Below, piece by piece: positions 21,887 through 42,205 of a stretch of 43,498 nt of DNA. Each line of letters begins with the position of its first letter. The first letter of the stretch is position 1. The notes under the pieces were generated by a model. It did not search any database. It was given only the letters and a program-made list of their open reading frames with translations, and was not told the origin of the DNA. The DNA is from a virus. Location of the stretch: IMG/VR virus record IMGVR_UViG_3300025699_000015, positions 1 through 43,498 of that record; one strand, 5' to 3'. A program made the translations under genes and the position numbers.

Positions 21887-22558
21887 ATGACTTTTGGAAA
21901 ACGAAGAAATAAGATAACTGAAGAAGAAGACGAAGATACAACAGCAGAAGAACAAGAAGAATCATCACAAAAGCTTAAGATTAATCTTGGCCAACTGTTA
22001 GGCGGTGGGGGCGGAGGCAAAGATCCTCGCATCCTTGGTCTATTTGGGTCAGTCGAAGAAGAGAAAGCAGGTGAACTCTGTTATCATCTTATAACAATGT
22101 CTGAACCAGAGGAACCCGATGAGGGAGAAAAAGCAGAGAAACCAGAAGACATTAAATTTTATGTCTCAACATATGGTGGATCAGCAGATGATATGTTCTC
22201 TATCTATGATGTCATGAACTTTGCTAAAAAGAGATGTGATATCCAAACCATAGGTCTTGGAAAGGTTATGTCGGCTGGTGTTCTTCTGCTCGCAGCAGGA
22301 ACAAAAGGAAAGCGAAAGATTGGTCGTAATTGTCGTGTTATGATCCACGCAGTATCGGCTGGTAACATGGGCTCACTCCATAATCTTGTCAATGAACTAG
22401 ATGAGATACAGAACCTTCAAGAGTCCTACATTGATGCAATCGTTGAGAACTCTAGCTTTACAAAGAAGACATTAAAGCGGCTCTTGGACCGTAAGGTAAA
22501 TGTATATTTATCAGCAGAAGAAGCAATTGAACATGGAATTGCTGATGAACTGATCTAA
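21887..22558 (+). CDS. ClpP-like serine protease
   Basis: A 223-residue ClpP-fold protease. The first 45 residues are an acidic extension plus a glycine run (LLGGGGGGKDPRI) not seen in cellular ClpP. The core then follows: FYVSTYGGSADDMFSIYD, the serine elbow GKVMSAGVLLLAAG (S129), RVMIHAVSAG (H154), and NVYLSAEEAIEHGIADE. Aligning that last segment with cellular ClpP (RDRFLSAPEAVEYG) places N204 where the triad aspartate is expected. No Clp ATPase is seen. It could degrade host or phage proteins with host ClpX/A, or be a head-maturation protease. AGGAGG SD. Confidence 0.88.
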   Translation: MTFGKRRNKITEEEDEDTTAEEQEESSQKLKINLGQLLGGGGGGKDPRILGLFGSVEEEKAGELCYHLITMSEPEEPDEGEKAEKPEDIKFYVSTYGGSADDMFSIYDVMNFAKKRCDIQTIGLGKVMSAGVLLLAAGTKGKRKIGRNCRVMIHAVSAGNMGSLHNLVNELDEIQNLQESYIDAIVENSSFTKKTLKRLLDRKVNVYLSAEEAIEHGIADELI

Positions 22559-28888: not shown

Positions 28889-29578
28889 ATGAAACGGTTA
28901 AAAGCTTTATTTATGATGGCAGTTTGTGTCTCACTGATGGGTATTGGACCCATACTTGGGAAAAACGATTTTGGCAAAAAGGTAGACTCATCATATAACA
29001 TTTTATGTTTTAAGAATAATTTATTAGTAGGCTCAGGCTCAGGAAATCATTTTAAAGTAAGGGGAACACCATTTGTGACGACAGCCGCCCATGTAGTTGA
29101 CACTTGCGATACTGTAGCTGTTGTTGAAGGTAATGGCGAGGTATATCAATTGGATTTAGTGATTATAGATATTTTAGTAGACTGGGCTGTTCTGAAGCCA
29201 AAGCGACCATTACTTTTACCTCCAGCTAAATTCTATAGAAAGTCTATAGATGTGGGTGATCGTGTGGATATGTTAGCATGGCCATCTGATTATGGAATGA
29301 TTTATGCTGAAGGGATGATCTCAGGCCACAGAAACTTAAGTATTTATATTCAAACATTTTGTTGGTTAGGTTCTTCTGGTGCTGCTGTTTTTACAGATGA
29401 GGGCGCTTTCGTGGGATTGGTTCATGGAATTAAAGTTGGTTGGTATGACCCCGCAATGCCACCCCAGTTATTAAATGGTATGTGCTTGGTGAGACCAATG
29501 ACAAACATATCCGATATTGAAATTTATGAGGCAGTTCGCAGCTATGATGGAGGTGAAGCGCGGTACCTTATTCACTGA
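28889..29578 (+). CDS. Exported trypsin-like serine protease
   Basis: A 229-residue protein starting at the ATG after CCGGGGG; the longer frame upstream reads through the terminator. Residues 1-22 form a signal peptide or membrane anchor (MKRLKALFMMAVCVSLMG). The chymotrypsin-fold triad is in place: H68 in TTAAHVVDTC, D98 in VDWAVLKP, and S163 in GSSGAAVF. LGSSGAAVFTDEGAFVGLVHG is the usual serine-site block. It probably works in the periplasm or outside the inner membrane. A cellular-like secreted protease on a phage is unusual; receptor change or superinfection exclusion are guesses. Confidence 0.85.
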   Translation: MKRLKALFMMAVCVSLMGIGPILGKNDFGKKVDSSYNILCFKNNLLVGSGSGNHFKVRGTPFVTTAAHVVDTCDTVAVVEGNGEVYQLDLVIIDILVDWAVLKPKRPLLLPPAKFYRKSIDVGDRVDMLAWPSDYGMIYAEGMISGHRNLSIYIQTFCWLGSSGAAVFTDEGAFVGLVHGIKVGWYDPAMPPQLLNGMCLVRPMTNISDIEIYEAVRSYDGGEARYLIH

Positions 29579-29804
29579 TTGTGGTAAGATAGGTATGATA
29601 GTTAAAATATACAAAGTTGGAGCCAGAAGCGATGAAGCCGCAAGCATTGTGTGGCATGAAACATATGAAATCTATTATGCTGATGGATCGGTGGCTTTCA
29701 TAAACAAAGGGTCTTTTGATAGCATGGTAGAGTCGGAGATCATTAAAATCTTATCTCCTTCTACTTTAATGCCACAACCACTGAGCTTTTTCCAATGGCT
29801 CTAG
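29547..29804 (+). CDS. Small GDLV-family-like protein
   Basis: An 85-residue protein overlapping the protease gene by 32 nt (ATG at 29544 is an alternative). The core VKRGTLFTDCGKIGMIVKIY has the family's G-[ST]-L turn followed by an IGMIVKI strand, then TYEIYYADGSVAFI. A divergent member of the small SH3/KOW-like set. Confidence 0.5.
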   Translation: MEVKRGTLFTDCGKIGMIVKIYKVGARSDEAASIVWHETYEIYYADGSVAFINKGSFDSMVESEIIKILSPSTLMPQPLSFFQWL

Positions 29805-29810
29805 TGTGAG

Positions 29811-30086
29811 ATGAAATTTACTAATGAACAAATTTATCAAATGGATTGCTATTTATGGCTAGATTATTGTATAGAAAGTATCTGGGTTTATTATAAAATC
29901 AATTATGGTGGTCGCATCTTTGTGGATGATGAAGAGGAAGAACACATTGCTTTCCTAATGGAATGTATTTACGACTTCGAAGCCAACATCTTAGAAATTT
30001 TAAATAAACATAACATTAGCTTTAGTATGCTAACACAGTATAAGGAGATGAATAATGTTTCACATTGGCCAACTCGTTATAGTTAA
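29811..30086 (+). CDS. Small acidic helical hypothetical protein
   Basis: A 91-residue protein, aromatic-rich near the start (CYLWLDYCIESIWVYYK) with an acidic stretch (DDEEEEH). Not recognised. The next gene begins 32 nt before its stop. Confidence 0.55.
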   Translation: MKFTNEQIYQMDCYLWLDYCIESIWVYYKINYGGRIFVDDEEEEHIAFLMECIYDFEANILEILNKHNISFSMLTQYKEMNNVSHWPTRYS

Positions 30087-30249
30087 ATCCGTTGGAGAGA
30101 ATTATTATTTAGGCATCATCTTAAATAATCTTTTATATTTAAACGCTTTCGAAGATGCTTTTTATCAAGTGTATTTGATACATACAGCAGAAGATGTCAC
30201 TGTCCCTGCTGAATTTATTATGCCGCTACCTGCTGTGGGTAAATCCTAG
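30055..30249 (+). CDS. Small GDLV-family SH3/KOW-like protein
   Basis: A 64-residue protein after AAGGAG. Core FHIGQLVIVKS, then a YLGIILNN strand and VYLIHTAED; a typical compact family member. Overlaps the previous gene by 32 nt. Confidence 0.6.
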   Translation: MFHIGQLVIVKSVGENYYLGIILNNLLYLNAFEDAFYQVYLIHTAEDVTVPAEFIMPLPAVGKS

Positions 30250-30261
30250 TGGAGTATTTTT

Positions 30262-30534
30262 ATGGGTGAAGAGACAGAATTCAAGGTGGGAGATTTAGTT
30301 TATTTTAATGTGGGTTATTACTTCGATCACATCGATATTGATAAAAAGGTGGGCGGAGATACTCTATTTATTATAACTGAGATGCTTGGTGCTACTACTA
30401 TTTGTATTATAAAACCTGTCAAATATTTGCGAGGAGTAGGGACTGGTTGGTATTTTGATACTGGATTAGAATATAAAATCCTTTCTAAGTTTTTAATCAA
30501 GGCTACTGATGTATCTGCGAGACTAGAGCCATAA
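30262..30534 (+). CDS. Small GDLV-family SH3/KOW-like protein
   Basis: A 90-residue protein with core FKVGDLVYFNVG, followed by a long insert and strands (TLFIITEMLG, TICIIKPVKY). One of the larger members. GTGGAG lies about 7 nt upstream. Confidence 0.65.
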   Translation: MGEETEFKVGDLVYFNVGYYFDHIDIDKKVGGDTLFIITEMLGATTICIIKPVKYLRGVGTGWYFDTGLEYKILSKFLIKATDVSARLEP

Positions 30535-30547
30535 AAAATGTTTTTTC

Positions 30548-30575
30548 TTGACAAACCCTCAAATCGTGATACATT
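30548..30575 (+). promoter_or_regulatory. Sigma70-type promoter, extended -10 (TACATT variant)
   Basis: TTGACA, 16-nt spacer, TGaTACATT, preceded by a T-run. Leader about 24 nt to the ATG at 30600. Confidence 0.78.
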
Positions 30576-30599
30576 ACATATATCAAAAAGGAGATTTTA

Positions 30600-30881
30600 A
30601 TGGCTTATGCACAAAACTGGCGAAATAATAAACACACAGCAGAAGAAGTTATGGCTGAATTACATAAAATAGCCCCTAATTACACTAAAAATGCCTTTAC
30701 GGTTCGTATAGGCATGGATGATGGGGGAAAGATGCTACAGGTTATCACAGCCCTCAATGAAGACGGTTCTAGCCCCTATGTAGGTGGCCACCCAACAAAC
30801 TTTATGGGGTGGCGATGCTGCTGGTTTAATTGGCCCCCTGCTCTCTTGGAGGACCTGATGAATCCCTCTGAGGATTCATGA
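30600..30881 (+). CDS. Hypothetical protein
   Basis: A 93-residue protein with AAAAAGGAG upstream. A basic helical start, then beta-rich sequence (FTVRIGMDDGGKMLQVI) and a tryptophan/cysteine-rich patch (MGWRCCWFNWPP). Not recognised. Its final codons lie in a hairpin that includes the next start codon. Confidence 0.65.
   Translation: MAYAQNWRNNKHTAEEVMAELHKIAPNYTKNAFTVRIGMDDGGKMLQVITALNEDGSSPYVGGHPTNFMGWRCCWFNWPPALLEDLMNPSEDS
30858..30879 (+). promoter_or_regulatory. Hairpin over a start codon, translational coupling
   Basis: A perfect 8-bp inverted repeat, ATGAATCC / GGATTCAT, with a six-base loop. Its right arm contains the first two bases of the next gene's ATG (30878), and its loop edge holds the GAGGA site. 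A ribosome finishing the upstream gene would open it. Confidence 0.5.
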
Positions 30882-31093
30882 ATGACCTAGTTGGTTCTGT
30901 TGTTATTCTTGATGACCATGTCTGTGGCACACTTATTGGTGTAATTATTAGAGCAGTATGGTCACCTATCATGGACGATCACATTTTAACCATAAAGTGG
31001 ACAGATCTTGAAGAAGATGTCTATAGTTATAGCTATTTAAGAAAATACATACACTCACAGAGAGTTCAAGCCCATGCCACTAACCATCCATAA
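30878..31093 (+). CDS. Small GDLV-family SH3/KOW-like protein
   Basis: A 71-residue protein starting in an ATGA overlap. Core DLVGSVVILDDH, then TLIGVIIRAV and TIKWTDL strands. Family member by pattern. Confidence 0.55.
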   Translation: MNDLVGSVVILDDHVCGTLIGVIIRAVWSPIMDDHILTIKWTDLEEDVYSYSYLRKYIHSQRVQAHATNHP

Positions 31094-31424
31094 TGTCATT
31101 CATTATTCCGAGGATTATATTGAAGTCTATAACTTTCTATCGTTTCGAAGCGCTCTTAATAAGATGTACAACATTTGCCTCGGCCTCTATAGAAGCATTA
31201 AATCCTACAACCAAATGCATAACACAGCAGATGATCTAGATCATTATTTTTTAGATTGGTTCCATGGACAAATTTGGAAAGAGGAGTACTTTGAGTATGA
31301 ATACTTTATTGAATTAGGAGAAGTGGAGGCTAGCTTGGTTGCCGAATCTCTTTGTGCCTTCATAGCTGAGTACACTGATTGGCGAGAACGATTACACATT
31401 ACTTACGGAGAAATAAAAGGATAA
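31074..31424 (+). CDS. Helical hypothetical protein
   Basis: A 116-residue protein rich in aromatic and acidic residues (DHYFLDWFHGQIWKEEYFE). Largely helical by composition. Not recognised. It overlaps the previous gene by 20 nt and precedes a promoter. Confidence 0.6.
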   Translation: MPLTIHNVIHYSEDYIEVYNFLSFRSALNKMYNICLGLYRSIKSYNQMHNTADDLDHYFLDWFHGQIWKEEYFEYEYFIELGEVEASLVAESLCAFIAEYTDWRERLHITYGEIKG

Positions 31425-31430
31425 ATAAGC

Positions 31431-31458
31431 TTGACAAATGTTATGAACAGGTTATATT
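31431..31458 (+). promoter_or_regulatory. Sigma70-type promoter
   Basis: TTGACA, 16-nt spacer, TATATT preceded by AGGT rather than TGT. Leader about 29 nt to the ATG at 31488. Confidence 0.82.
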
Positions 31459-31487
31459 ATTAATACTGTACCAATAAAGGAGGATAC

Positions 31488-31754
31488 ATGTATCAAACAA
31501 ACTACCAACAAATCTTATTAGCAGCAACTGATGTTGTAGAATTTATCAGCGCATCATCACGAGCACCCCGCTGGGTCGGAACATTAAATGACTTTGTAAG
31601 CTATGATTTATCACAAACATTAACCATAAGGATGCTGTCAGATCTAATTAATGCGATTAATGACCAAGAAATTACTTTACCAATAACCCAAATCGATAAT
31701 ACAACTGTCATGGTTGACACAAAAGTACTTGATATCTTAGGAGATCTTTTATGA
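31488..31754 (+). CDS. Hypothetical protein
   Basis: An 88-residue protein after AAAGGAGG. Helical with a strand pair near the end (TLPITQIDNTTVMVDTKVL). Not recognised. Ends in an ATGA overlap with the next small gene. Confidence 0.6.
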   Translation: MYQTNYQQILLAATDVVEFISASSRAPRWVGTLNDFVSYDLSQTLTIRMLSDLINAINDQEITLPITQIDNTTVMVDTKVLDILGDLL

Positions 31755-31891
31755 GAACAAAAACAAGAAATTGGCATGCTGTTAATGCCCACCAAAGGAA
31801 AGCAGGGTCACACATAGATAAACAAAAAAAACAATCTAAAAATGCCTGTCGTAAATCTAAGTCTCAAAGACTTAACAATGATGGCATTTGA
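31751..31891 (+). CDS. Tiny basic protein
   Basis: A 46-residue protein starting in the ATGA overlap. It is strongly basic (RNWHAVNAHQRKAGSHIDKQ), like small basic phage proteins that open R-N-x-x-A-x-x-A-H-x-x-x-x-A-x-x-H-x-D-x-K. It may bind nucleic acid. Its end overlaps the next start by 14 nt. Confidence 0.6.
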   Translation: MRTKTRNWHAVNAHQRKAGSHIDKQKKQSKNACRKSKSQRLNNDGI

Positions 31892-32129
31892 ACCACTAGA
31901 CTATGATAATGCTGCTATCGGCAGTGAGGTCCGGTGGCTAGGTGATAACCCAGTAATAGGATTTATAACATCGATTGAAGAATACGGGTGGATCGAAGAT
32001 GACGAGAGAGAGCTAGTATCTCATTCATTTTATATTGTTGTTGCTAATTGTGATGGCACCACGCATGAATTCGACATTAACTCTCTCGCCATTTATTGCC
32101 CCACAGTGATGGTAAGAGTCCCCGATTAA
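31878..32129 (+). CDS. Small GDLV-family-like protein
   Basis: About 83 residues; tandem ATGs at 31878 and 31881 overlap the end of the basic protein. Core AAIGSEVRWLGD, then VIGFITSIEEYGW, FYIVVANCDG. A divergent family member. No strong SD, so coupling is likely. Confidence 0.5.
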   Translation: MMAFEPLDYDNAAIGSEVRWLGDNPVIGFITSIEEYGWIEDDERELVSHSFYIVVANCDGTTHEFDINSLAIYCPTVMVRVPD

Positions 32130-32152
32130 TAAATCCTGAATAAATAAAAAAC

Positions 32153-32180
32153 TTGACAAATAATCACAATAGGTTATATT
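32153..32180 (+). promoter_or_regulatory. Sigma70-type promoter
   Basis: TTGACA, 16-nt spacer, TATATT. First of the right-hand class with an A/C-rich spacer ending in GGT. Leader about 41 nt to 32222. Confidence 0.82.
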
Positions 32181-32221
32181 ATATACAACGGCAATCCTGC
32201 TATCATTGAACTGGAGTTTTG

Positions 32222-33250
32222 ATGAGAAAATTAAAAAATAAAGGGCCATGGTGCTACATGTGTAGTGTTTATGGACATGGGTCCACAAAATGCCCCAATC
32301 TGGATAAATATTTAGATATGGTAGCTCTGGTTATATCAACAAATGGTTTGGGGGATGAATGGCTTGATGAGTCTGGATCTCTTGATATGAACAAACTCGT
32401 TGCTGATCCCAATAGCTTAGTAAATTTTACATATTTGAGTGTAAAGGCCCTTGATGCCTCCAACAAAATGGGAACCAATGGGCTGCCACCCTTAAAGTCT
32501 GCTGTTATCCTTTACAAAGCGATCAGAGCTAAGAAAAAACAACACAATTATAAGTTAGCCGGTGAGAAGAGGCGAGGTAAAAGTCGTACACGAGCATCGA
32601 GGTGTGGATATTGTAGCATCGTTGGTCATACTCGGCGGACTTGTACGCAAATGGCAGAAAACCAGACCTTGGTGCTTAATGCCAATAAACTATATCGGAG
32701 ACAGTTTGCTGATCGTATGAGCAGCCTCTCTCTTGGTGCTGGGGCACTCCTACAATTCACTATAAATGCCGATGGCATTGTAGGGAAAACTCATGGATGG
32801 TATCCGTATTATCCTGACTCTTTCTTATCCATTGTTCCTGAATTAGCATTTAGAGATTGTACTGTTTTCAATATGGTATCTAACTATGACTATACCCATA
32901 GAGCCGTACTAGATCACCATCCAGTAGGAGTTACTATCGAAGATACGCGGTTACGAAAAAGCTTACCTATTGTCTCTAATGCTCGCTTTTTTGATAAAGC
33001 TTTTGCTGGCAATGAGCGAAAGGGACATGTTGCGCTTGGTCCCGAGTCAAACATAGGCTTAACCGCATATGATATAACAGTAATAAAGCCATCCAAGAGA
33101 CAAGAGTTCACCGAAGAGTGGATTAATGAAGAAAGCCCTTGGTTTATGGAACTTTTCAAGAAAGCCCGACTTAATTCGTATGAGTGGAATTCTACTTTTG
33201 GACAAATTCAACATTGGTATGACAAAGCGAAGGTATATGATGTCCAATGA
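32222..33250 (+). CDS. Double CCHC zinc-knuckle protein
   Basis: A 342-residue protein with two retroviral-type zinc knuckles, C-x2-C-x4-H-x4-C: CYMCSVYGHGSTKC (C11, C14, H19, C24) and CGYCSIVGHTRRTC (C128, C131, H136, C141). A lysine/arginine-rich stretch (AGEKRRGKSRTRAS) precedes the second. The C-terminal 200 residues (YYPDSFLSIVPELAFRDCTV) look globular and unfamiliar. Zinc knuckles bind single-stranded nucleic acid, so an RNA- or ssDNA-binding role is inferred. The ATG at 32222 follows GGAG; a TTG three bases earlier is possible. By far the largest gene of its neighbourhood. Confidence 0.75.
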   Translation: MRKLKNKGPWCYMCSVYGHGSTKCPNLDKYLDMVALVISTNGLGDEWLDESGSLDMNKLVADPNSLVNFTYLSVKALDASNKMGTNGLPPLKSAVILYKAIRAKKKQHNYKLAGEKRRGKSRTRASRCGYCSIVGHTRRTCTQMAENQTLVLNANKLYRRQFADRMSSLSLGAGALLQFTINADGIVGKTHGWYPYYPDSFLSIVPELAFRDCTVFNMVSNYDYTHRAVLDHHPVGVTIEDTRLRKSLPIVSNARFFDKAFAGNERKGHVALGPESNIGLTAYDITVIKPSKRQEFTEEWINEESPWFMELFKKARLNSYEWNSTFGQIQHWYDKAKVYDVQ

Positions 33251-33446
33251 AGTAAAAATCGGCTCCCTTGTTTCTTATCCGTCATGGGTTGAAGGCACAG
33301 GGCTTATAAGGCGATTTGGGATTGTAAGACAGATAGCCACAGCTATTGAAGGAGATACAATTGTATTGGTAATGTCAACAGATGGAACAACAGAGATAAC
33401 TAACCTTGATGGATGCGAAGTGTGTCATGGAGCTAAGAATGATTAA
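33240..33446 (+). CDS. Small GDLV-family SH3/KOW-like protein
   Basis: A 68-residue protein (ATG at 33237 also possible) overlapping the zinc-knuckle gene. Core VKIGSLVSYPS, then FGIVRQI and IVLVMSTDGTTEI strands; ends with a C-x2-C-type pair (GCEVCHG). Confidence 0.6.
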   Translation: MSNEVKIGSLVSYPSWVEGTGLIRRFGIVRQIATAIEGDTIVLVMSTDGTTEITNLDGCEVCHGAKND

Positions 33447-33651
33447 AGAAGAAGATTTTGCTATCGGAGACTTGGTTAGATATACTGGGCATGGCCATAG
33501 CGAATATAGATCGAAGCGAATGATTGGTGTTGTAATACGGTCTCATAGATTTGCGGAGCAATGTAAGGTAAGCTGGGTATGTCAACCCGAGACCAAAGGT
33601 TGTTGGTACTGGAAGAGCAACTTAAAAAAGATTAATAAAATAAAACACTAA
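33439..33651 (+). CDS. Small GDLV-family SH3/KOW-like protein
   Basis: A 70-residue protein. The ATG at 33439 has GGAG seven nt upstream and overlaps the previous gene by 8 nt. Core FAIGDLVRYTGHG, then IGVVIRSH, and a basic C-terminus (LKKINKIKH). Confidence 0.65.
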   Translation: MIKEEDFAIGDLVRYTGHGHSEYRSKRMIGVVIRSHRFAEQCKVSWVCQPETKGCWYWKSNLKKINKIKH

Positions 33652-33678
33652 AGACTATTATAGTATAGGGAGAAAATT

Positions 33679-33903
33679 ATGAAAAACATTGGAATTTTTG
33701 GAGAATATGAAGAAAAGCATCAAAGGTTACTGGATAATCTTGCCATGTATCAAACCATGAAGCAGTTTATTGAATCACTGGGCCAATATCCAGAAGGAGC
33801 AGGGCACGATGAGTACACAGAACACATGATGCAGTCTTTATTTGATATTATTAATAGATACGCTGAAGATGCCCGAAAAGATGACCAATATCAGGATCAC
33901 TAG
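33679..33903 (+). CDS. Small helical hypothetical protein
   Basis: A 74-residue protein after AGGGAG. Helical, acidic and histidine-containing (GHDEYTEHMMQSLFDII). Not recognised. The next gene starts on the base after its stop. Confidence 0.6.
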   Translation: MKNIGIFGEYEEKHQRLLDNLAMYQTMKQFIESLGQYPEGAGHDEYTEHMMQSLFDIINRYAEDARKDDQYQDH

Positions 33904-34158
33904 ATGAGATCTATCTTTGATAAAATGGCTGCTAAAAGCCAAGTGGTTGTTGGTGACCTAGTAGAGCCTGAAGAGATCCCATTACGAAGATACTACGGGT
34001 TAATTAATGTGGTTGTATGGGTGCCCGAAAACTTCGCAGCCTTTACAAATGTTGTTTACATCAATCAAAACGATTGGATTCGAGTTTATTCTCCCAAAGT
34101 TGACAAAGAATGGACCTTGAAGATGGGAGAATACATAAAAATAAACAAATCTACTTGA
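33904..34158 (+). CDS. Small GDLV-family SH3/KOW-like protein
   Basis: An 84-residue protein, core VVVGDLVEPEEIP, then YYGLINVVVW and IRVYSPKVD. Its TGA stop is the TGA of the next promoter's TTGACA. Confidence 0.6.
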   Translation: MRSIFDKMAAKSQVVVGDLVEPEEIPLRRYYGLINVVVWVPENFAAFTNVVYINQNDWIRVYSPKVDKEWTLKMGEYIKINKST

Positions 34159-34182
34159 CAAACATTCCTAATAGGTTATATT
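34155..34182 (+). promoter_or_regulatory. Sigma70-type promoter
   Basis: TTGACA, 16-nt spacer, TATATT; -35 contains the previous stop codon. Leader about 50 nt to the ATG at 34233. Confidence 0.83.
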
Positions 34183-34232
34183 ATATACATCAGACAAACT
34201 GATACTCCTAAACCCTTCACAGGATACACACG

Positions 34233-34601
34233 ATGGCTTATTTACAACCAAAACTATTAATCTTTATTAAGAACAGTGGCCAACCCATAACCGCAATCAT
34301 TGACAAGGTAGCCTTCCGGAAATACTGGGGCAAAAGAAAAGACAAAGCAACTGGCCAAATGGTTCGTGCTCGCAAGTCTATGCCTTATGCTATCTGCTCT
34401 GTCGTAATGTCACAAGACCCCGAGGTAAGTCTCGGAGCAAAATTTACAATACCGGGATATAAACTCCAGAATATTATTGTAAAGAACGATAAAGCTCTTG
34501 CCTTTCATCATAAATACGAGGTTGAGTTTGCTGACACTTATGGAAACGAGTGGGTACAAACACTAATTAATGAGGAAACTAAAAATGAATCAAATATTTA
34601 A
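34233..34601 (+). CDS. Beta-rich basic hypothetical protein
   Basis: A 122-residue protein. After a strand (PKLLIFIKNSGQPI) comes a basic loop (KYWGKRKDKATGQM) and further strands (FTIPGYKLQNIIVKN). Not recognised. The next gene starts 17 nt before its stop. Confidence 0.6.
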   Translation: MAYLQPKLLIFIKNSGQPITAIIDKVAFRKYWGKRKDKATGQMVRARKSMPYAICSVVMSQDPEVSLGAKFTIPGYKLQNIIVKNDKALAFHHKYEVEFADTYGNEWVQTLINEETKNESNI

Positions 34602-34782
34602 AATTGGTGACCTTGTAGATTATTGTGGCATCTCTCCCGCTTTTGTAGGAAAAGTTGGCGTTGTTACTGCTTTGGATTCTGGTGCCAAAAGGTCAGCTTA
34701 TGTGTGGTGCCTGTTTGGATCAAGAGAAATCGTGGTTCAACCAAGGCACCTGAGATTAGTAAAGAACAGGAGAAAGAAATGA
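34585..34782 (+). CDS. Small GDLV-family SH3/KOW-like protein
   Basis: A 65-residue protein; ATG at 34585 with GAGGA upstream. Core FKIGDLVDYCG, then VGVVTALDSG and REIVVQPRHLRLVK, ending in a basic tail. Confidence 0.65.
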   Translation: MNQIFKIGDLVDYCGISPAFVGKVGVVTALDSGAKRSAYVWCLFGSREIVVQPRHLRLVKNRRKK

Positions 34783-35132
34783 AAAGAATAATTATAGCCC
34801 TATTAATGTGTGGATGCTATCACACCCCACCAGTTAATTCAACCGTGGTGATACCACCCCCCACCTACATGAGCCAACCATTACCTTACTTGCTAGACAA
34901 AACAAGTCCCCCTCGACCGCTTCATCCACATCATCCGAATATGATATGGGTTTGGGTTCCAGCCCACATGAAGAATGGTTACATGATTGCTGGACATTGG
35001 GAACAAAGAAGAAAGCCAAAGCAACCACCCGTGGTTTATGGGCCACGACCCCCAATAAAACCGAAGCCTCCTCTGAAGCCAAAGCCCAAGAAGAAGCCAA
35101 CACACACCGTAAAGCCTAAGAGAAAGAAATAG
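34779..35132 (+). CDS. Putative lipoprotein with proline/lysine tail
   Basis: A 117-residue protein. MKRIIIALLMCGCYHTPP is a short lipoprotein-like signal with C13 as the probable lipidated residue (-1 is Gly). The middle has WVWVPAHMKNGYMIAGHW, similar to envelope-protein W-x-x-G-x-W repeats. The last 40 residues are almost all proline and lysine (PKPPLKPKPKKKP). ATG after AGGAG; 4-nt ATGA overlap. It could sit in the outer or inner membrane with a tail reaching into peptidoglycan. Role unknown; superinfection exclusion is possible. Confidence 0.7.
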   Translation: MKRIIIALLMCGCYHTPPVNSTVVIPPPTYMSQPLPYLLDKTSPPRPLHPHHPNMIWVWVPAHMKNGYMIAGHWEQRRKPKQPPVVYGPRPPIKPKPPLKPKPKKKPTHTVKPKRKK

Positions 35133-35365
35133 TGGATGAGCAGCAAAAAAAAGAACTAAAATTCAAAGTTGGAGACCTTGTTGTCTTATCGGCTGCTGGT
35201 GAGAAGAACTATGGAAATAGCTCCGCCTTTGATGAGATCCTCATTATAACTCGGATTAGGAATGGGCGGGATTTCCCCATCGGTGCCCTTAGAGTTAGAG
35301 ATTTGCGTGGCATTCATTTTAAAGAATACGAACTTAAATTTGCGAAGGCACCACCCAAGAAATGA
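35132..35365 (+). CDS. Small GDLV-family SH3/KOW-like protein
   Basis: A 77-residue protein from GTG at 35132 (TAGTG overlap). Core FKVGDLVVLSAAGEKNYGN is clearly paralogous to the proteins at 38346 and 38942, which read GDLVTLS(S/A)AG. Lysine-rich end. Confidence 0.65.
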   Translation: MDEQQKKELKFKVGDLVVLSAAGEKNYGNSSAFDEILIITRIRNGRDFPIGALRVRDLRGIHFKEYELKFAKAPPKK

Positions 35366-35523
35366 AAGTAGGAGATCTTGTAAGAGGCAACTTTACAGTT
35401 GGCATTGGTATTATTGCCAAAGACTATGGGGATGGTTGGTTTAAGGTGACATTTCCTAGTGGACATGACACTCTCTATTATAAGACAGCACTAATAAAAG
35501 TAAATAAAAAACTTGACAAATAA
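35362..35523 (+). CDS. Short GDLV-family SH3/KOW-like protein
   Basis: A 53-residue protein beginning MKVGDLVRGN in an ATGA overlap. Then VGIGIIAKDYGDGWFKVTF, the family's second and third strands. Its last residues (KKLDK) are encoded by the next promoter's -35 region. Confidence 0.65.
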   Translation: MKVGDLVRGNFTVGIGIIAKDYGDGWFKVTFPSGHDTLYYKTALIKVNKKLDK

Positions 35524-35540
35524 TCACAACCGGTTATATT
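35513..35540 (+). promoter_or_regulatory. Sigma70-type promoter
   Basis: TTGACA, 16-nt spacer, TATATT; overlaps the end of 35362. Leader about 32 nt to the ATG at 35573. Confidence 0.83.
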
Positions 35541-35572
35541 ATATACTCCACCCAAGAACACAGGAAAAAACA

Positions 35573-36088
35573 ATGAACATATTCGCAATCGAAGGTAAAG
35601 GCAATCAAATCGACTGGATAAAGTCGGCTCAATCACTAGACAATTATCGTGTGGTCAAGATGATTTTAGAAAGCTGTCAAATGCTGTGTACCGCTATCAA
35701 TGACCAACATGGAGAGAAGGTCACACCATACAAAAATGCTCACCTCAACCACCCGTCAACCAAGTGGGTTCGTGCTTCTTCGGCTAACTTCGAGTGCCTT
35801 GTGGAGCATACACTTGCTATGCTTGACGAGTACACCGAGCGGTTCGGCAAGATACACAAGTGTGCTGGCGTACTGGAGACTGTGCTGGATCTCTATGACC
35901 CCTCCCTATTTCCTTCGTCTAATACTACCCCCCTGCCTCTGTGTATGCCTGACGAGTACAAGAGCGACAACACAGTAGAAAGTTATCGTCGCTTTTACAC
36001 CGACAAGCCACGAATGCGATACCCCACAAACAAAATACCACAGTGGTTTTTAGAATACAGAACTTCAGACTTTCAGCAGATAGGATAA
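35573..36088 (+). CDS. Conserved phage protein of the VVKMILES family
   Basis: A 171-residue protein. RVVKMILESCQMLCTA, then KNAHLNHPSTKWVRAS and EYTERFGKIHK form a pattern I recall from proteins shared by many large phages (H-V-V-K-M then Q-L-L, then H-x-x-HP-x-x-W-x, then R-Y-x-K-x-HK). Function in that family is unknown to me. ATG after AGG with a 32-nt leader. The C-terminal third is proline-rich. Confidence 0.72.
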   Translation: MNIFAIEGKGNQIDWIKSAQSLDNYRVVKMILESCQMLCTAINDQHGEKVTPYKNAHLNHPSTKWVRASSANFECLVEHTLAMLDEYTERFGKIHKCAGVLETVLDLYDPSLFPSSNTTPLPLCMPDEYKSDNTVESYRRFYTDKPRMRYPTNKIPQWFLEYRTSDFQQIG

Positions 36089-36092
36089 CCCA

Positions 36093-36263
36093 ATGAGATT
36101 CATAGTCGGAGACACAATAAAAATTACTTTAACCGATGGTGAAACATTTACAGGTGAGGTCGTGGAAAATGAAAGAGGCTTTGTAGTCTTAATGGGCCCA
36201 ACTGGTGAGAGATTTGTATGTCGCACAGACCGTTGTCGGAGTGCTAATGTCCATAGTGGATAG
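36093..36263 (+). CDS. Short GDLV/Sm-like small protein
   Basis: A 56-residue protein starting 4 nt after the previous stop. MRFIVGDTIKITLTDGETF then TGEVVENERGFVVLMG resembles both the GDLV set (VGD-T-I) and Sm-like strands. Contains a C-x4-C pair. The next gene begins 17 nt inside it. Confidence 0.55.
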   Translation: MRFIVGDTIKITLTDGETFTGEVVENERGFVVLMGPTGERFVCRTDRCRSANVHSG

Positions 36264-36468
36264 ATACCCCGTTGGAAGTCTGCTTATGCATCGTAGGACA
36301 GGGTCACCATTATTTGCTATCGTAGTTTCACATGAATTTTTTGGAAATATATGTAAAATAAAGCTGAAACTTGCGAATCCACCTCCACATTATTCACTAT
36401 TTTATATCGCATGGTCCGATGAGATAGCATATACATGGGAAATCATATCCAAAGGAAATAAAAAATAA
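36247..36468 (+). CDS. Small GDLV-family SH3/KOW-like protein
   Basis: A 73-residue protein; ATG at 36247 with CGGAG upstream. Core YPVGSLLMHRR, then FAIVVSH and CKIKLKL strands and a lysine-rich end shared with the A-tract before the next promoter. Confidence 0.6.
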   Translation: MSIVDRYPVGSLLMHRRTGSPLFAIVVSHEFFGNICKIKLKLANPPPHYSLFYIAWSDEIAYTWEIISKGNKK

Positions 36469-36486
36469 TCTTTTTCACTTTTTTTC

Positions 36487-36514
36487 TTGACAAACAATCC
36501 CAATCGGTTATATT
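36487..36514 (+). promoter_or_regulatory. Sigma70-type promoter (CGGT spacer end)
   Basis: TTGACA, 16-nt spacer ending ATCGGT, TATATT. Preceded by an A-run and T-run. Leader about 31 nt. Confidence 0.84.
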
Positions 36515-36545
36515 ATATACATCAACCGAGAACTATGGAGATCTC

Positions 36546-37223
36546 ATGGAAATAGAAAAGCAATTGACAAAGCTATTGGCCACCATTAACGCTGAAGAGA
36601 AGCCAAACGAAAGGCATCTTGAAGTTATTACCTCATTTATAAATGCGAGTGAAAAATACGGAGGCTTAACACCTCGTCAAGCTAGCTATTTTGAGTCTAT
36701 TCAAAAGCAATACTCTGCTGAGCATCAGGCAGAGATGGAAAAATGTAGAGACCGCTTGCTTAACGATGAAGAATACCAGAATGACCTTAAGATTGTCGCT
36801 GCGTTTTATGATATAACAGGCTATTATCGGAACATTGTCGTGCGATTACAAGATTGGTTCCGTGGCGAAGGTGATGTTCCAGCTAACTACCATGCTTCTA
36901 TCGATAGAATGTTGAACAACAAGTATGCTCAACAGGTTCTGGAGTCACATAAGACTGCTCCTCTTTATCCACTAGGGTCTCTTGTAACCCCTAGGGGCCA
37001 CTCATCCGTAGCTGCGAGTACATGGAGAACCATTTATGGCCTTCTTACAAACCAAGCATGCATTATAACCAAAATTGATTCAAAGCCTATCGATAAATCG
37101 CTTACATATAACAAGACCCGTGGTGGTACTCGCTATTACACCATCTTTGCTCCATCTATTGGTAAGTCATATGATATTATTGAAAGAGATTTAAAGAGAT
37201 TTTCAAGAAAGAATAAAAAATAA
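36546..37223 (+). CDS. Helical domain fused to a GDLV-type domain
   Basis: A 225-residue protein. Residues 1-135 are charged helices (MEIEKQLTKLLATIN; EHQAEMEKCRDRLLND). The C-terminal third holds a GDLV-type core, YPLGSLVTPRGH, then TIYGLLTNQACIITKI and YYTIFAPS. It is the only member of the small family carrying an extra domain, which suggests the small domain is a general interaction module. Ends in a lysine-rich tail (SRKNKK). ATG with GGAG. Confidence 0.65.
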   Translation: MEIEKQLTKLLATINAEEKPNERHLEVITSFINASEKYGGLTPRQASYFESIQKQYSAEHQAEMEKCRDRLLNDEEYQNDLKIVAAFYDITGYYRNIVVRLQDWFRGEGDVPANYHASIDRMLNNKYAQQVLESHKTAPLYPLGSLVTPRGHSSVAASTWRTIYGLLTNQACIITKIDSKPIDKSLTYNKTRGGTRYYTIFAPSIGKSYDIIERDLKRFSRKNKK

Positions 37224-37232
37224 ACTTTTTTC

Positions 37233-37261
37233 TTGACAAACCCACCAACCCATGATACATT
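37233..37261 (+). promoter_or_regulatory. Sigma70-type promoter, extended -10 (TACATT variant)
   Basis: TTGACA, 17-nt spacer, TGaTACATT. Leader about 32 nt to the ATG at 37294. Confidence 0.76.
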
Positions 37262-37293
37262 ATCTATACCAACCGAGAGCAACGGAGTTTCTC

Positions 37294-37647
37294 ATGAAAA
37301 CAAGCACCATAACAGTTTCATTAAATACAAGCGGAAGCCGCTGTGTCTACCAAGGCCGTGGCTATTTTAATTACCCTTTTGTGGTTCATCGACCTCAGAG
37401 TGGGGATGGTAAGCTTGAAACTTCCAGCCAATGGTGGGTGATAACACATGTTGCTAGTGGAAAAATGGTTCTCCGCTCTCGAACCTTGGATGATAGCCAA
37501 AAGGTCATCGCAATACTTAAGAAATATACTGTGTTCTTAATGCCTGAATGCGATAAGTTCTATAAGATTTGTGCTAGTCAAGGCGGAAAGATTATGGGCA
37601 GTGTTGAGGAAGCCGGTTTTGATAGAAGTGCTGGTAGGTTTGTATGA
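37294..37647 (+). CDS. Beta-rich hypothetical protein
   Basis: A 117-residue protein with CGGAG upstream. Strand-rich (TITVSLNTSGSRCVYQG; WWVITHVASGKMVLRS), ending in a C-terminal helix and glycine/arginine residues. Not recognised. ATGA overlap with the next gene. Confidence 0.6.
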   Translation: MKTSTITVSLNTSGSRCVYQGRGYFNYPFVVHRPQSGDGKLETSSQWWVITHVASGKMVLRSRTLDDSQKVIAILKKYTVFLMPECDKFYKICASQGGKIMGSVEEAGFDRSAGRFV

Positions 37648-37826
37648 CGGTTGATGACCTACCCGTCGGGACACTGATAGAGTGGCAAATTGATACTACC
37701 AAAAGGTTTGGAGTTGTCTTCAGCAATGAGAACGAATTCATTAAGGTGAGACCCTTAAGTCAACCTTTTAACTGGTATTTTAATAATGAGACATTAAAAA
37801 GTTTTAAGGTAAGGAAAGTAAAATGA
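37644..37826 (+). CDS. Small GDLV-family SH3/KOW-like protein
   Basis: A 60-residue protein, core LPVGTLIEWQID, then FGVVFSNENEFIKV and a basic end (FKVRKVK). ATGA overlaps on both sides. Confidence 0.6.
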   Translation: MTVDDLPVGTLIEWQIDTTKRFGVVFSNENEFIKVRPLSQPFNWYFNNETLKSFKVRKVK

Positions 37827-38041
37827 AGTCCAACTCCCCCACCCACCAAGTCGGTGACCTAATACAATATACACATAAATCATCACGATTCTATAAGAAT
37901 GGTCAATTTGGCATCATTGTTGCGGTGATACCTGTCCTTCCCGCTTGGAAATCTGCGGGTTATATGTATAGAATCCAATTTACTACTCATGAAGCAGTAA
38001 TGAAACCAGAGTATTTTAAAGTCGTCAAGAGTGTAAAATGA
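37823..38041 (+). CDS. Small GDLV-family SH3/KOW-like protein
   Basis: A 72-residue protein, core HQVGDLIQYTH, then FGIIVAVIPV and YRIQFTTHE, ending KVVKSVK. Overlaps both neighbours by 4 nt. Confidence 0.65.
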   Translation: MKSNSPTHQVGDLIQYTHKSSRFYKNGQFGIIVAVIPVLPAWKSAGYMYRIQFTTHEAVMKPEYFKVVKSVK

Positions 38042-38277
38042 AAACAATCATCCATGTAAACCAGCATGTAATCAAGAGCAACAGAAAGAAAGGAGAGCTT
38101 GAACCTGTCCTAACCTGTAAGACCTACAAGACCAACACCTATGCCCATGAAGCAATTATCAGGGATGCGGATGGCAATGAGGTTGCCAGAGTGGTCTATC
38201 GGCCCGATAAGCCCCTGTCATGCGGTGCTCATGTCTGGATTGAAACACAGCTAGATGTCGAGACAATAAAAAAATAA
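38038..38277 (+). CDS. Conserved small protein, HVNQHVIK family
   Basis: A 79-residue protein. IIHVNQHVIKSNRKKGELEP, a YAHEAII-x-D-A core and PLSCGAHVWIETQLDVETI follow a pattern I recall from small phage and plasmid proteins with few known functions. Its last residues (KK) come from the A-tract before the next promoter. Confidence 0.65.
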   Translation: MKTIIHVNQHVIKSNRKKGELEPVLTCKTYKTNTYAHEAIIRDADGNEVARVVYRPDKPLSCGAHVWIETQLDVETIKK

Positions 38278-38286
38278 ACTTTTTTC

Positions 38287-38314
38287 TTGACAAACTTTAC
38301 CAATCGGTTATATT
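38287..38314 (+). promoter_or_regulatory. Sigma70-type promoter (duplicated at 38573)
   Basis: TTGACA, 16-nt spacer ending ATCGGT, TATATT. ATG is 59 nt from the start of the -35, as in the copy at 38573. Confidence 0.85.
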
Positions 38315-38361
38315 ATATACATCACAATCAAATAACGGAGTTAAAATGAAGATTGGAGATT
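38287..38361 (+). repeat. Promoter-leader-5' coding repeat, copy 1
   Basis: About 75 nt running from TTGACA through the leader and first eight codons (to GATTTAGT) of the gene at 38346. It matches 38573-38647 with about six mismatches and identical spacing. Confidence 0.85.
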
Positions 38362-38564
38362 TAGTTACACTATCATCTGCCGGTTGCAAGGCGCAAGGAA
38401 ACTGGAGACAAAGAGCATGTGCTACTTTTGGTATAATCGTTTACAGCCTTGGCGATAAATACCATCGTGTCAAATGGATTTACCCACAAGAATATAGCGG
38501 AAAACCATGGAGGAAACCCACAGGCCATAATCGCTACGAACTAAAAAAGTTTAAAAAATCGTAA
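38346..38564 (+). CDS. Small GDLV-family SH3/KOW-like protein
   Basis: A 72-residue protein, MKIGDLVTLSSAG, then FGIIVYSLGDKYHRVKW and a lysine-rich end. Closest visible relatives are at 38942 and 35132. Start of the tandem-paralogue block. Confidence 0.7.
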   Translation: MKIGDLVTLSSAGCKAQGNWRQRACATFGIIVYSLGDKYHRVKWIYPQEYSGKPWRKPTGHNRYELKKFKKS

Positions 38565-38572
38565 TTATTTAC

Positions 38573-38600
38573 TTGACAAACATTCACAATCAGTTATATT
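38573..38600 (+). promoter_or_regulatory. Sigma70-type promoter (copy of 38287)
   Basis: TTGACA, 16-nt spacer, TATATT; near-copy of the promoter at 38287. Confidence 0.84.
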
Positions 38601-38647
38601 ATATACATCACAATCAAACAGCGGAGTTAAAATGAAGATTGGAGATT
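38573..38647 (+). repeat. Promoter-leader-5' coding repeat, copy 2
   Basis: Near-identical to 38287-38361; the coding sequences diverge immediately afterwards. Confidence 0.85.
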
Positions 38648-38769
38648 TAGTAAAGTACAGAGATGAACTTTATATAGTATTGTCTGCTAACCCAACAATG
38701 GCGCAAGTCTTTCATATAAAAACAAACACCAAGACTTTTTTCCCAGAGCATTGGTTGGAGGCAGCATGA
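38632..38769 (+). CDS. Short GDLV-family protein
   Basis: A 45-residue protein, MKIGDLVKYRDELYIVLSAN, ending FPEHWLEAA. A minimal version of the family lacking the longer insert. Next gene starts in an ATGA overlap. Confidence 0.65.
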   Translation: MKIGDLVKYRDELYIVLSANPTMAQVFHIKTNTKTFFPEHWLEAA

Positions 38770-38945
38770 AGATTGGAGATTTAGTTAAAAACAAATATTC
38801 AGCCCAGTTTACTGACCACAGCAAAATTGGTATTGTAATTGAGATAAGAATGCGACATTTTGATGGAGAGCCCAAGGTTGTGTATGTCGTTACCCTTAAT
38901 GGACAACGACAACGATGGTATACACGATTTTTGGAGGCACTATGA
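38766..38945 (+). CDS. Short GDLV-family protein
   Basis: A 59-residue protein, MKIGDLVKNKYSAQF, then IGIVIEIRMRH and VYVVTLNGQRQRW. The TTGGAGGCA leader before its ATG is nearly repeated before 38942, another sign of tandem copying. Confidence 0.65.
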   Translation: MKIGDLVKNKYSAQFTDHSKIGIVIEIRMRHFDGEPKVVYVVTLNGQRQRWYTRFLEAL

Positions 38946-39190
38946 AAGTCGGAGATTTAGTTACATTATCTGCTGCTGGCTCAAAACAAGAGCAAAACTG
39001 GATTGCGAAGCGGACAAAGTTTGGCATCGTTCTGGAGATAAAGAATACTTCATTCAACTCAGCAAGGCCGCTATTTATGATTGACTGGTTCGTATCTAAA
39101 AAAGACCAATACCTGTGGGGGGCAACCCGCAGACAGGGGCATTGGAGATACGAGATAAAAAAACTTAAAAAAAGCAATAAAAAAACTTGA
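38942..39190 (+). CDS. Small GDLV-family SH3/KOW-like protein
   Basis: An 82-residue protein, MKVGDLVTLSAAGSKQEQNW, then FGIVLEIKNTSF and a lysine-rich end (KKLKKSNKKT). Paralogue of 38346. The end overlaps the next promoter. Confidence 0.7.
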   Translation: MKVGDLVTLSAAGSKQEQNWIAKRTKFGIVLEIKNTSFNSARPLFMIDWFVSKKDQYLWGATRRQGHWRYEIKKLKKSNKKT

Positions 39191-39214
39191 CAACCATTCT
39201 GAATCGGTTATATT
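39187..39214 (+). promoter_or_regulatory. Sigma70-type promoter (CGGT spacer end)
   Basis: TTGACA, 16-nt spacer ending ATCGGT, TATATT. Leader about 32 nt to 39247. Confidence 0.84.
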
Positions 39215-39246
39215 ATATACATCAACCAAGAGCACAGGAAAAATCA

Positions 39247-40491
39247 ATGACTGATGAAGGCGAAACCAAATACACAAATCCAGAAAAGTTTGACTTAAAC
39301 AAATACACCTTTAGATTGTTACAATCCGAGCCGTTCTTCGCAGCATTAAGCAGAAGGATACAGAAGAGAGCCTCAACAGCTATTCCAACTGCTGGTGTCC
39401 GGTTAAACCCAGAAACTGCTCAGTTTGAGATGCTTTATAACCCTGCCTTCTTTGCTGATATGCCCGACAATCATCGTTTTGGTGTATTAATGCACGAGTT
39501 TTATCACATCATCTTTGAGCATGTCACAGGCCGATTGCCTCCCGAAGGTATGTCAAAGATGTGGAATGTCGCAACAGATTTGGCTATAAACTCACATCTT
39601 GTTGGTAAGCTTCCCGAAGGCGGCTGTATGCCAGAAGTAAAGCCCTTTGAAGACTATCCAAGAGGCATGTCTGCTGAGTGGTATTTCTCAAAGCTTCAGA
39701 ACGATGAGCAATTCAAGCCCAAAGAAGGTGAAGGCGAAGGTGAACCATCAGATGGTGAAGGTGATGGCTCTGGACAACCTTCTCAAGGCCAAGGCAATGG
39801 AATGCCTGATACCATGGATGACCATAGCGGATGGGGTGATGCCTCTGAAGAGGTGCGAGACATGGCAAAAGAAAGACTTAAGCAAGCTGTTGAAAAGGCT
39901 GCTCAAGACGCTGCTAGCGGTCAAGGCTGGGGTACTGTATCTCAAGAGGTACGAAAGCAGATTATGGATATGATAAAGCCAAAAGTAAACTGGCGGTCTG
40001 TTCTTAGATACTTCATCAAGACATCTCAGAGAGCCGAGAAGCGGTCTACTGTGAGAAGATTAAACAAAAGGTATCCTTATATACATTCAGGTAAGAAGAT
40101 TACCAGAAGAGCTAAGATAGCCATCAGCATTGACCAATCTGGTTCAGTTAGTGACCAAATGTTGGCTGCGTTCTTCTCTGAACTGAATAACCTTGCTAAG
40201 CTAGCTGAATTTACAGTTGTTCCCTTTGATAGTGAAGTTGACGAGAGCAAAGTTTATGTTTGGAAAAAAGGAAAGCGTCGAACTATGGAAAGGGTTCTAA
40301 CCGGCGGTACTAACTTTGATGCTCCCACACGCTATGTCAATACTAACAAATTCGATGGCCACATAATCCTGACTGACATGGAAGCTCCAAAGCCCATCCC
40401 AAGTAAATGCCAAAGAATGTGGATGACAACACCAGAATGTAAAGACAGAGCTTACTTCCAGACCAATGAGAGGGTCATTGCGATTGATTAA
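39247..40491 (+). CDS. VWA-like protein with N-terminal metallopeptidase-like domain
   Basis: A 414-residue protein resembling the VWA/metallopeptidase-like proteins usually paired with MoxR ATPases. N-terminal domain: MHEFYHIIFEHVTG with H83-E84-x2-H87 (HExxH), then WNVATDLAIN. A low-complexity Glu/Gly/Ser linker occupies about residues 160-190. The C-terminal domain has the MIDAS-type SIDQSGSVSD (D296) and later TDMEAP. A partner AAA+ is at 41132. In such pairs the ATPase and VWA protein remodel or load a substrate; the target here is unknown. ATG after CAGGAAAAATCA. Confidence 0.82.
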   Translation: MTDEGETKYTNPEKFDLNKYTFRLLQSEPFFAALSRRIQKRASTAIPTAGVRLNPETAQFEMLYNPAFFADMPDNHRFGVLMHEFYHIIFEHVTGRLPPEGMSKMWNVATDLAINSHLVGKLPEGGCMPEVKPFEDYPRGMSAEWYFSKLQNDEQFKPKEGEGEGEPSDGEGDGSGQPSQGQGNGMPDTMDDHSGWGDASEEVRDMAKERLKQAVEKAAQDAASGQGWGTVSQEVRKQIMDMIKPKVNWRSVLRYFIKTSQRAEKRSTVRRLNKRYPYIHSGKKITRRAKIAISIDQSGSVSDQMLAAFFSELNNLAKLAEFTVVPFDSEVDESKVYVWKKGKRRTMERVLTGGTNFDAPTRYVNTNKFDGHIILTDMEAPKPIPSKCQRMWMTTPECKDRAYFQTNERVIAID

Positions 40492-41131: not shown

Positions 41132-42205
41132 ATGTCAATTGATTTCAAAACATTCTTACAAATAGTCCCACTCGTTACCGATGCTCGCTTCCCCGTTTTA
41201 CTTCGTGGTCGTCATGGAATCGGCAAGTCAACCGTCGTATATCAGTACGCTAAAAATGCTGGTCTTCCTATCGTCGAAAGAAGAGCTTCACAGATGACTG
41301 AAGGCGACTTGCTTGGGCTTCCTTCTATTGATGATAACAGCACCACTTGGAACGCTCCAGACTGGCTTAAAATGGCTTGTGACTCTGCTGTCGTTCTCTT
41401 CTTAGATGAAGTAGACAGAGCAACCATGGAAGTTCGTCAAGGTATCTTTGAACTTTGTGATAGTCGTAAGATTGCTGGGAACGCTTTACATCCTGATACT
41501 CTCATCTTCGCAGCCGTTAACGGTGGTGTCCATGGAGCACAATATCAAGTTGGAGAGATGGACCCAGCAGAACTTGACCGCTACACCGTCTTTGATGTAG
41601 AGCCTACTGTTGAAGATTGGCTTAACTGGGGTGCTGATGTTGTTGCGAAGCCTATCTGGGATTTCATCAACAGCAATCACCAACACTTAGAGCACAACGA
41701 TGAGTACGAGCCTAACAAGGTTTATCCTTCACGACGCTCTTGGGAACGCCTGAGCAATGCTCTAGAGACCGCTGGCTTGTCTTTTGAGATGTCTCCAACC
41801 ATCTATCACCTTGCTAACTCATTCGTTGGTATGGAAGCTGCTATAGCTTTCAATGATTACCTTCGAGAATACAAAAATGAATTAACTGTTGAGCAGTTAG
41901 TCAATGATGGCCGTGTTGATGATACCAACGATTGGGTTATCAATGAGCACACCGCAATGGTAGAGAAGATTAAAGCATCAAAGATATTTGATGAAGACTT
42001 AACTTCTGACCAGCTTCAGAATGTTGCTAACTACTTCGTTCGTATTCCTTCAGAGGTCTCAATGCTTCTTTGGAAAGCAATGGGTGAAGGCTCAGCTTGT
42101 TCAACCAACATCGTCAATTTTCACGACATCGTAGCCGTGAATGCTTCTGGAGAGAAGGTATCAATCCAAGAGCACATCGTCAGCAACCTTACAGCAGGGC
42201 AATAA
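41132..42205 (+). CDS. MoxR-type AAA+ ATPase
   Basis: A 357-residue AAA+ protein of the MoxR group. Walker A is GRHGIGKS at 26-33 and Walker B VVLFLDEVDRA at about 87-97. TLIFAAVNGG (about 130) is the sensor-1 region, and DPAELDRYTVFDVEPT the arginine-finger/helix-bundle entry typical of MoxR. The C-terminal half is helical and acidic. MoxR proteins act with VWA partners; the likely partner is at 39247. ATG preceded by AAGGAAAAATCC. Confidence 0.88.
   Translation: MSIDFKTFLQIVPLVTDARFPVLLRGRHGIGKSTVVYQYAKNAGLPIVERRASQMTEGDLLGLPSIDDNSTTWNAPDWLKMACDSAVVLFLDEVDRATMEVRQGIFELCDSRKIAGNALHPDTLIFAAVNGGVHGAQYQVGEMDPAELDRYTVFDVEPTVEDWLNWGADVVAKPIWDFINSNHQHLEHNDEYEPNKVYPSRRSWERLSNALETAGLSFEMSPTIYHLANSFVGMEAAIAFNDYLREYKNELTVEQLVNDGRVDDTNDWVINEHTAMVEKIKASKIFDEDLTSDQLQNVANYFVRIPSEVSMLLWKAMGEGSACSTNIVNFHDIVAVNASGEKVSIQEHIVSNLTAGQ

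Follow-up and report, generated by a model that had tools for sequence, protein, structure and literature searches.

Small-protein genes that probably form an exchangeable cassette array in an uncultured, apparently marine phage group

The 43.5 kb virus record IMGVR_UViG_3300025699_000015 (hereafter the window, i.e., the whole stretch of DNA analyzed, which reads as a fragment of a larger phage genome, those of its group being near 190 kb in size) carries many tiny genes whose products begin with a GDLV-type core, 23 of which an earlier note on this DNA had joined in one family. Considered together with 80 related loci, found by searching with the DUF2201 protein of the window, on contigs that reach about 190 kb in length, these genes are, as a whole, probably best explained as a phage gene-cassette array of micro-proteins that are exchanged by homologous recombination and would serve as a host-targeting repertoire. 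Across the window and the related loci, the strict start motif opens 845 small open reading frames on the gene strand and a single one on the other, with each member encoding a protein of 45–90 a.a.

The array genes of the relatives are connected by a joint of about 32 nt with the consensus TTGGAGGTnATcA[A/G]TGAAAGTCGGTGATTTgGT, which is read as L-E-V-I-[SN]-E-S-R-stop in the frame of the upstream gene and as M-K-V-G-D-L-V in that of the downstream gene. This one short sequence provides a Shine–Dalgarno site, a start codon, and a stop codon, and at the same time encodes LEVI, the C-terminal strand of one protein, as well as MKVGDLV, the N-terminal strand of the protein that follows; its GGAGGTnATc part matches the complement of the 16S rRNA 3′ end. 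Of 356 contiguous member pairs in nonredundant loci picked by the anchor gene, without reference to the joint, 224 (63%) share an overlap of exactly 14 nt, 56 one of 4 nt, and 28 one of 10 nt. Across 227 distinct 14-nt joints, most positions between −12 and +19 carry 1–2 bits of information, and positions beyond these limits carry close to none. Where a member has no upstream partner, the LEVI/Shine–Dalgarno block is lacking (3.1 vs. 13.1 bits over positions −12 to −1) and the start is kept. We also noted unrelated small genes, including those for membrane proteins and a zinc-ribbon-like protein, that lie inside arrays and end in the joint (L045:4953-5273, L022:4794-4994, L065:13083-13286, and L032:14932-15132), and the joint is thus not confined to the barrel family.

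Comparison between loci yielded 332 pairs of matched cassettes, the neighbors of which differed in 237 of the 263 testable comparisons and agreed in 26. Neighbors differed in 97 and agreed in 12 comparisons of cassettes with 80–90% identity, the corresponding numbers at ≥95% identity being 25 and 2. The cassette beginning MKVGDLVxNGQGHTGIVTG was present in six phages, with different flanks in each, and the identity linked to a cassette fades from either side within the joint, at about +3 to +14 relative to the start codon. Length differences can likewise be placed at joints, as between two loci (L078 and L046), the former of which holds about 500 bp extra at one joint. The exchanged copies show a ratio of nonsynonymous to synonymous substitution rates (dN/dS) of about 0.16 over 302 pairs, with a dS of about 0.8, indicating that they are functional genes under purifying selection. 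From these comparisons, it is very probable that single genes are exchanged as cassettes at the joints.

False shuffling could arise if a short joint, repeated many times per genome, caused assemblers to jump between phages, and the contigs are indeed all metagenomic. Most exchanged copies, however, are 70–90% identical, and copies separated by a dS of about 0.8 cannot be the same molecule misjoined. The array architecture, moreover, is independent of any comparison between contigs, and a second contig (L005) is 99.9% identical over the window region, leaving an assembly artefact as a highly improbable account of the shuffling.

A second account invokes ordinary mosaicism, where non-essential small genes move by illegitimate recombination, cuts at gene ends survive selection, and the joint is simply a ribosome-binding site with a conserved start. 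Phage insertions and deletions tend to respect gene borders, as this account would have it, and translation alone would conserve part of a seam that complements the 16S rRNA 3′ end. Against it, 19 of the 22 indel junctions in array DNA of closer relatives are no more than 20 nt from a member start (compared to 11% expected), the inserts holding whole genes, and most junctions carry 10–51 nt of repeated sequence. The single preferred overlap of 14 nt also speaks against mosaicism, as does the fact that large genes in the same loci retain 47% of their neighbors, compared to 10% for cassettes. We consider mosaicism of this kind unlikely and retain exchange at the joints as the preferred reading.

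With regard to the machinery, RecA was encoded in all eight large contigs tested, while matches to the Phage_integrase, Resolvase, and RVT_1 families were found in none of the eight and GIY-YIG in one. Given this distribution, homologous recombination at the joints is the simplest mechanism, and we favor RecA-type recombination as the means of exchange, with somewhat less assurance than the exchange itself. Integrases, resolvases, and reverse transcriptases were rejected as candidate exchange machinery on the same grounds, and the reverse transcriptase that marks a diversity-generating retroelement was likewise absent from the eight contigs. A site-specific recombinase that uses the joint in the way an integron integrase uses attC would suit the switch of linkage within about 10 nt and the likeness of the architecture to a gene-cassette array. 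It is very unlikely, however, given the lack of Phage_integrase or Resolvase matches, a consensus joint with no evident inverted repeat, and a joint type that varies among phages (14, 10, or 4 nt, or promoter type).

Under the RecA-based reading, the joint would offer the RecA system of the phage enough homology, or a substrate for single-strand annealing, and whole genes would be swapped, inserted, or deleted at joints during mixed infection. The first and last strands of SH3-type barrels pair with one another. As the joint is predicted to encode both of these terminal strands, an exchanged gene would still be foldable, and would be translated at once, coupled to its neighbor. Less surely, the variable loops and faces may bind host targets, with the swappable repertoire kept by an arms race.

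Several points weigh against this picture. The 14-nt joint is absent from the window, and matches of window cassettes in other contexts were not found, such that exchange for the window genome is inferred from its relatives. The material consists of metagenome contigs with no cultured member, and both translation and exchange are read from sequence. A 30-nt repeat can mislead assemblers, meaning that some near-identical cases may be chimeras, and those loci that were collected by the joint pattern are biased towards the joint. The joint is also shorter than the homology that RecA normally prefers, and all fold matches for the proteins are weak (E ≥ 0.003).

The earlier note had suggested rapid diversification, which the wider sample bears out, as the 1317 members from nonredundant loci fall into 996 clusters at 60% identity, including 824 singletons. 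The Chao1 estimate for the cassette pool is about 4,300, and the pool is apparently open. Tandem duplication was considered as the source of this diversity and rejected, with 9 duplicate pairs within loci vs. hundreds between loci. Judged by these comparisons, the members appear to be spread by exchange between phages and not by duplication within one genome, a point missed by the earlier note, as was the placement of the diversity in cassettes with a conserved overlapping joint. In five large contigs, the profile detected 17–35 members each, 109 of the 117 lying in a single region of about 13–19 kb, and the DUF2201 gene lies inside this member-dense region in four of the five (the four that supplied loci to the DUF2201 search). 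Among isolated phages, no match to any window member was found at E ≤ 1, a whole array was without match, and one relative's cassette returned chance-level matches only. Apart from one match in P-TIM68, the family is missing from the cultured phages nearest by terminase (immuto, Mel-JY01, and others), and 84,980 bacterial species genomes contain no exact copy of the joint.

A common SH3/KOW-like barrel had also been proposed, and this is supported by AlphaFold2 (AF2) models of two members, together with profile matches to the KOW domains of SPT5 and NusG. The model of the protein encoded at 38766 has strands at residues 6–9, 21–32, 35–44, 47–52, and 56–58 (predicted local distance difference test score, pLDDT, 87.6), and that of the protein encoded at 38942 displays a like barrel (pLDDT 85.3), both models being in keeping with SH3-like small beta-barrels, which are typified by five short strands and a short 3-10 turn before the last. 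On these models, a small five-stranded barrel of SH3/KOW/Tudor type is a sound reading, though a narrower family is not. The family profile matched SPT5 KOW with an E of 2.9e-4 but no single stretch passes, two SPT5 KOW models were each hit by one of 81 members (E about 3e-3), and no KOW match was found among the ten window members scanned. Window members gave only sub-threshold matches in Pfam and PHROGs, with no Pfam family above cut-off among the ten scanned; matches among the relatives' members were scattered, with phrog_1690 in 7 of 81. Like the KOW, Tudor-like, and SH3-like barrels of SPT5, NusG, uL24, CarD/CdnL, the Mfd RID, and the MSL3 chromo-barrel, the members have a predicted five-stranded barrel and a GD-[LV]-V first strand; they differ in that window members show only scattered sub-threshold or weak matches, and we therefore claim no KOW or SH3 family membership. 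Foldseek gave weak-scoring matches to the RNA-polymerase-binding barrels of CarD, CdnL, and Mfd, to chromo-barrels, and to Tudor domains, and the fold search was set aside as a functional clue, given that only generic barrels were returned. The best fold matches in BFVD (A0A516M742, M778, M7P1, M7P8, MAU8, MB48, MB52, and MB56) carry near-consecutive UniProt accessions, which suggests that genomes of other phages hold several members each.

On function, hypervariable micro-proteins that are exchanged gene by gene, held under purifying selection, and gathered in one hot spot would best fit a host-targeting repertoire. A role of members in host take-over or counter-defense is a possibility that we regard as a little short of even. 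Phage small accessory proteins, with which the array members share a size below 100 a.a., are of unassigned function, with some known ones controlling the host or its defense (PMC11323111). The main alternative, which is compatible with exchange, would make the members not weapons but modulators that bind RNA polymerase or the ribosome (KOW/CarD type), or adaptors of the DUF2201/AAA pair. The best weak matches, i.e., the KOW domains of SPT5 and NusG and the RNA-polymerase-binding domains of CarD/CdnL/Mfd, point in this direction, as does the placement of the arrays around the anchor gene pair. The fold matches in the PDB, however, have E ≥ 0.02 and are generic to SH3-like barrels, and 996 clusters with divergent interiors are hard to reconcile with one shared partner, and we hold this alternative to be the less likely of the two.

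For the window itself, all 23 coordinates given by the earlier note are open reading frames with the described type of start, yet the size of the sure membership had been overstated. We trained a profile hidden Markov model (HMM) on 376 members from other contigs, excluding the window and L005, and shuffled the window proteins 20 times as a chance control (best E = 0.015). With this model, 14 of the 23 scored at E < 0.02, and nine (891, 11391, 30055, 30878, 31878, 36093, 36247, 36546, and 37644; E 0.12–3) were indistinguishable from chance by sequence. The best member lies at 38766–38945 (E 1.8e-12; this and all further window features are on the + strand), followed by 33439–33651 (3.2e-10), 38942–39190 (1.9e-9; its end enters the promoter copy at 39187), 35362–35523 (3.6e-8; its end enters the promoter copy at 35513), 38632–38769 (5.9e-8; overlapping the next gene by 4 nt), 37823–38041 (9.5e-8), and 34585–34782 (1.6e-7). 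Next are 38346–38564 (3.4e-6; assigned by alignment to a KxGDLVxLSxxG lineage), 35132–35365 (4.3e-4; a 4-nt ATGA overlap with the next member), an isolated member at 8615–8878 (7.9e-4), 30262–30534 (1.5e-3), and 29547–29804 (2.7e-3). The members at 33904–34158 (8.3e-3) and 33240–33446 (0.013; overlapping the next gene) are marginal given that the best shuffled control reached E 0.015. The earlier note would have abandoned the family had there been no signal outside the hexapeptide; six members remained significant with the MKVGDLV columns removed, namely, 38766 (9e-7), 33439 (1.4e-6), 29547 (3.3e-4), 38942, 34585, and 37823, and the relationship of this core set is therefore more than the first seven profile residues.

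The family takes a sparse form in the window, where members overlap by 4 nt and a repeated promoter acts as the longer joint. The genes at 38632, 38766, and 38942 are linked by 4-nt ATGA overlaps, with GGAGG within the preceding gene; the short joint GGAGGCAGCATGAAGATTGGAGATTTAGT (38757–38785) spans the boundary from gene 38632 into gene 38766, coding for the end of the former and the start of the latter, and a second short joint (38933–38961) lies between genes 38766 and 38942, both belonging to direct repeat family D1. A long joint (38268–38365) comprises an A-rich block, promoter, leader, ribosome-binding site, and the start and KIGDLV codons of gene 38346, and a second promoter-to-KIGDLV copy (38554–38651) serves gene 38632, the two forming a 98-nt direct repeat of 87% identity. 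The promoter, a strong one of the form TTGACA-N16-TATATTATATA, has 19 near-identical copies in the window (0.39 expected), all on the + strand, one at 39187–39219 and the others at 1567, 12085, 14016, 18523, 21381, 24839, 30548, 31431, 32153, 34155, 35513, 36487, 38287, 38573, 40511, 40815, 40995, and 42935. These copies (1567–42967) often overlap the end of the preceding gene, and some relatives have up to 6 copies and others none. Terminator-like sites in the 28–41 kb region of the window are at chance level (10 found, 9.7 expected).

The lysine-rich ends that had been described as a family trait are present, though they may reflect regulatory DNA and not protein function: five such tails (34158, 35523, 36468, 38564, and 39190) enter A-rich DNA just before a promoter copy, and the tail may thus be an imprint of the next promoter. 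Annotators are warned that conserved ends of either kind (LEVISESR or lysine-rich tails) may stem from the ribosome-binding site or promoter of the gene that follows and not from protein function.

The anchor gene (39244–40491; Pfam PF13203 and PF09967) encodes a DUF2201 putative metallopeptidase/VWA-like protein, around which the arrays in relatives sit, and its partner (41132–42205; Pfam) encodes an AAA_5 (MoxR-type) ATPase; the DUF2201 gene was present in every tested large contig carrying the joint. At 73–828 lies the C-terminal part of RecA (Pfam RecA, 3.1e-17), the proposed driver of cassette exchange. The window also encodes a DnaE-type polymerase and, by family matches, a 5′-3′ exonuclease, a DnaB-type helicase, a B12-dependent ribonucleotide reductase, and ThyX. 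Other genes include those for a GroEL-type chaperonin (25137–26711) and a ClpP protease (21887–22558) of the phage's own, a Trypsin_2 serine protease whose N-terminus apparently holds a signal or membrane segment (28889–29578), and, amid the small-gene region, a Pyr_excise domain protein (T4 DenV-type pyrimidine dimer glycosylase; 35570–36088). The terminase of one relative shares at most 45% identity with those of cultured phages (Flavobacterium phage immuto and Microcystis phage Mel-JY01), and the group is therefore uncultured; it is apparently marine and distantly T4-like. A more distant, larger relative (L123; 267 kb) has 50% identity in the terminase and 43% in the DUF2201 protein, and contains an exact copy of the joint.

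Among known systems, the nearest process is the modular shuffling mediated by promoter early stem-loop (PeSL) sequences in T4-type phages, reportedly described by Arbiol et al. 2010 and Comeau et al. 2014. The repeated promoter of the window is similar in spirit, and the relatives of the window phage likewise show a conserved boundary sequence at which single genes are exchanged. The T4 joint, however, is intergenic and regulatory (promoter/stem-loop), whereas the main joint here is coding DNA common to two genes, and the T4 promoter is flanked by an intrinsic terminator stem-loop, whereas the window's 19 copies show no upstream stem-loop terminators. In one published account, single genes are shuffled among related myophages by way of PeSLs, conserved short regulatory sequences that lie between small variable genes (PMC4503421). 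The nearest architecture is that of integron arrays, which are similarly composed of directional promoterless small genes with a conserved joint and, apparently, an open pool. Integrons, however, need a tyrosine-recombinase integrase, for which none of the eight large contigs gave a match, and here, no attC-like folded site is evident, neighboring genes overlap, and a single fold is common to almost every cassette. We found no earlier description of a cassette array with overlapping joints or of a multi-role coding joint in the open-access literature, in a search that was not exhaustive.

Tentatively, then, these phages may possess a new modular system, in which an open pool of thousands of one-fold micro-proteins is traded through one short sequence that acts as recombination homology, translational coupler, and terminal strands, i.e., an integrase-free analogue of the integron for host-targeting binders. 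If true, this would account for the creation and trading of small accessory genes by phages that have no dedicated recombinase, and for the fact that many phage ORFans (genes without recognizable relatives) resemble one another at their ends but not in their interiors. It would also make the joint a DNA handle with which thousands of putative host-targeting micro-proteins may be collected from metagenomes for bulk testing.

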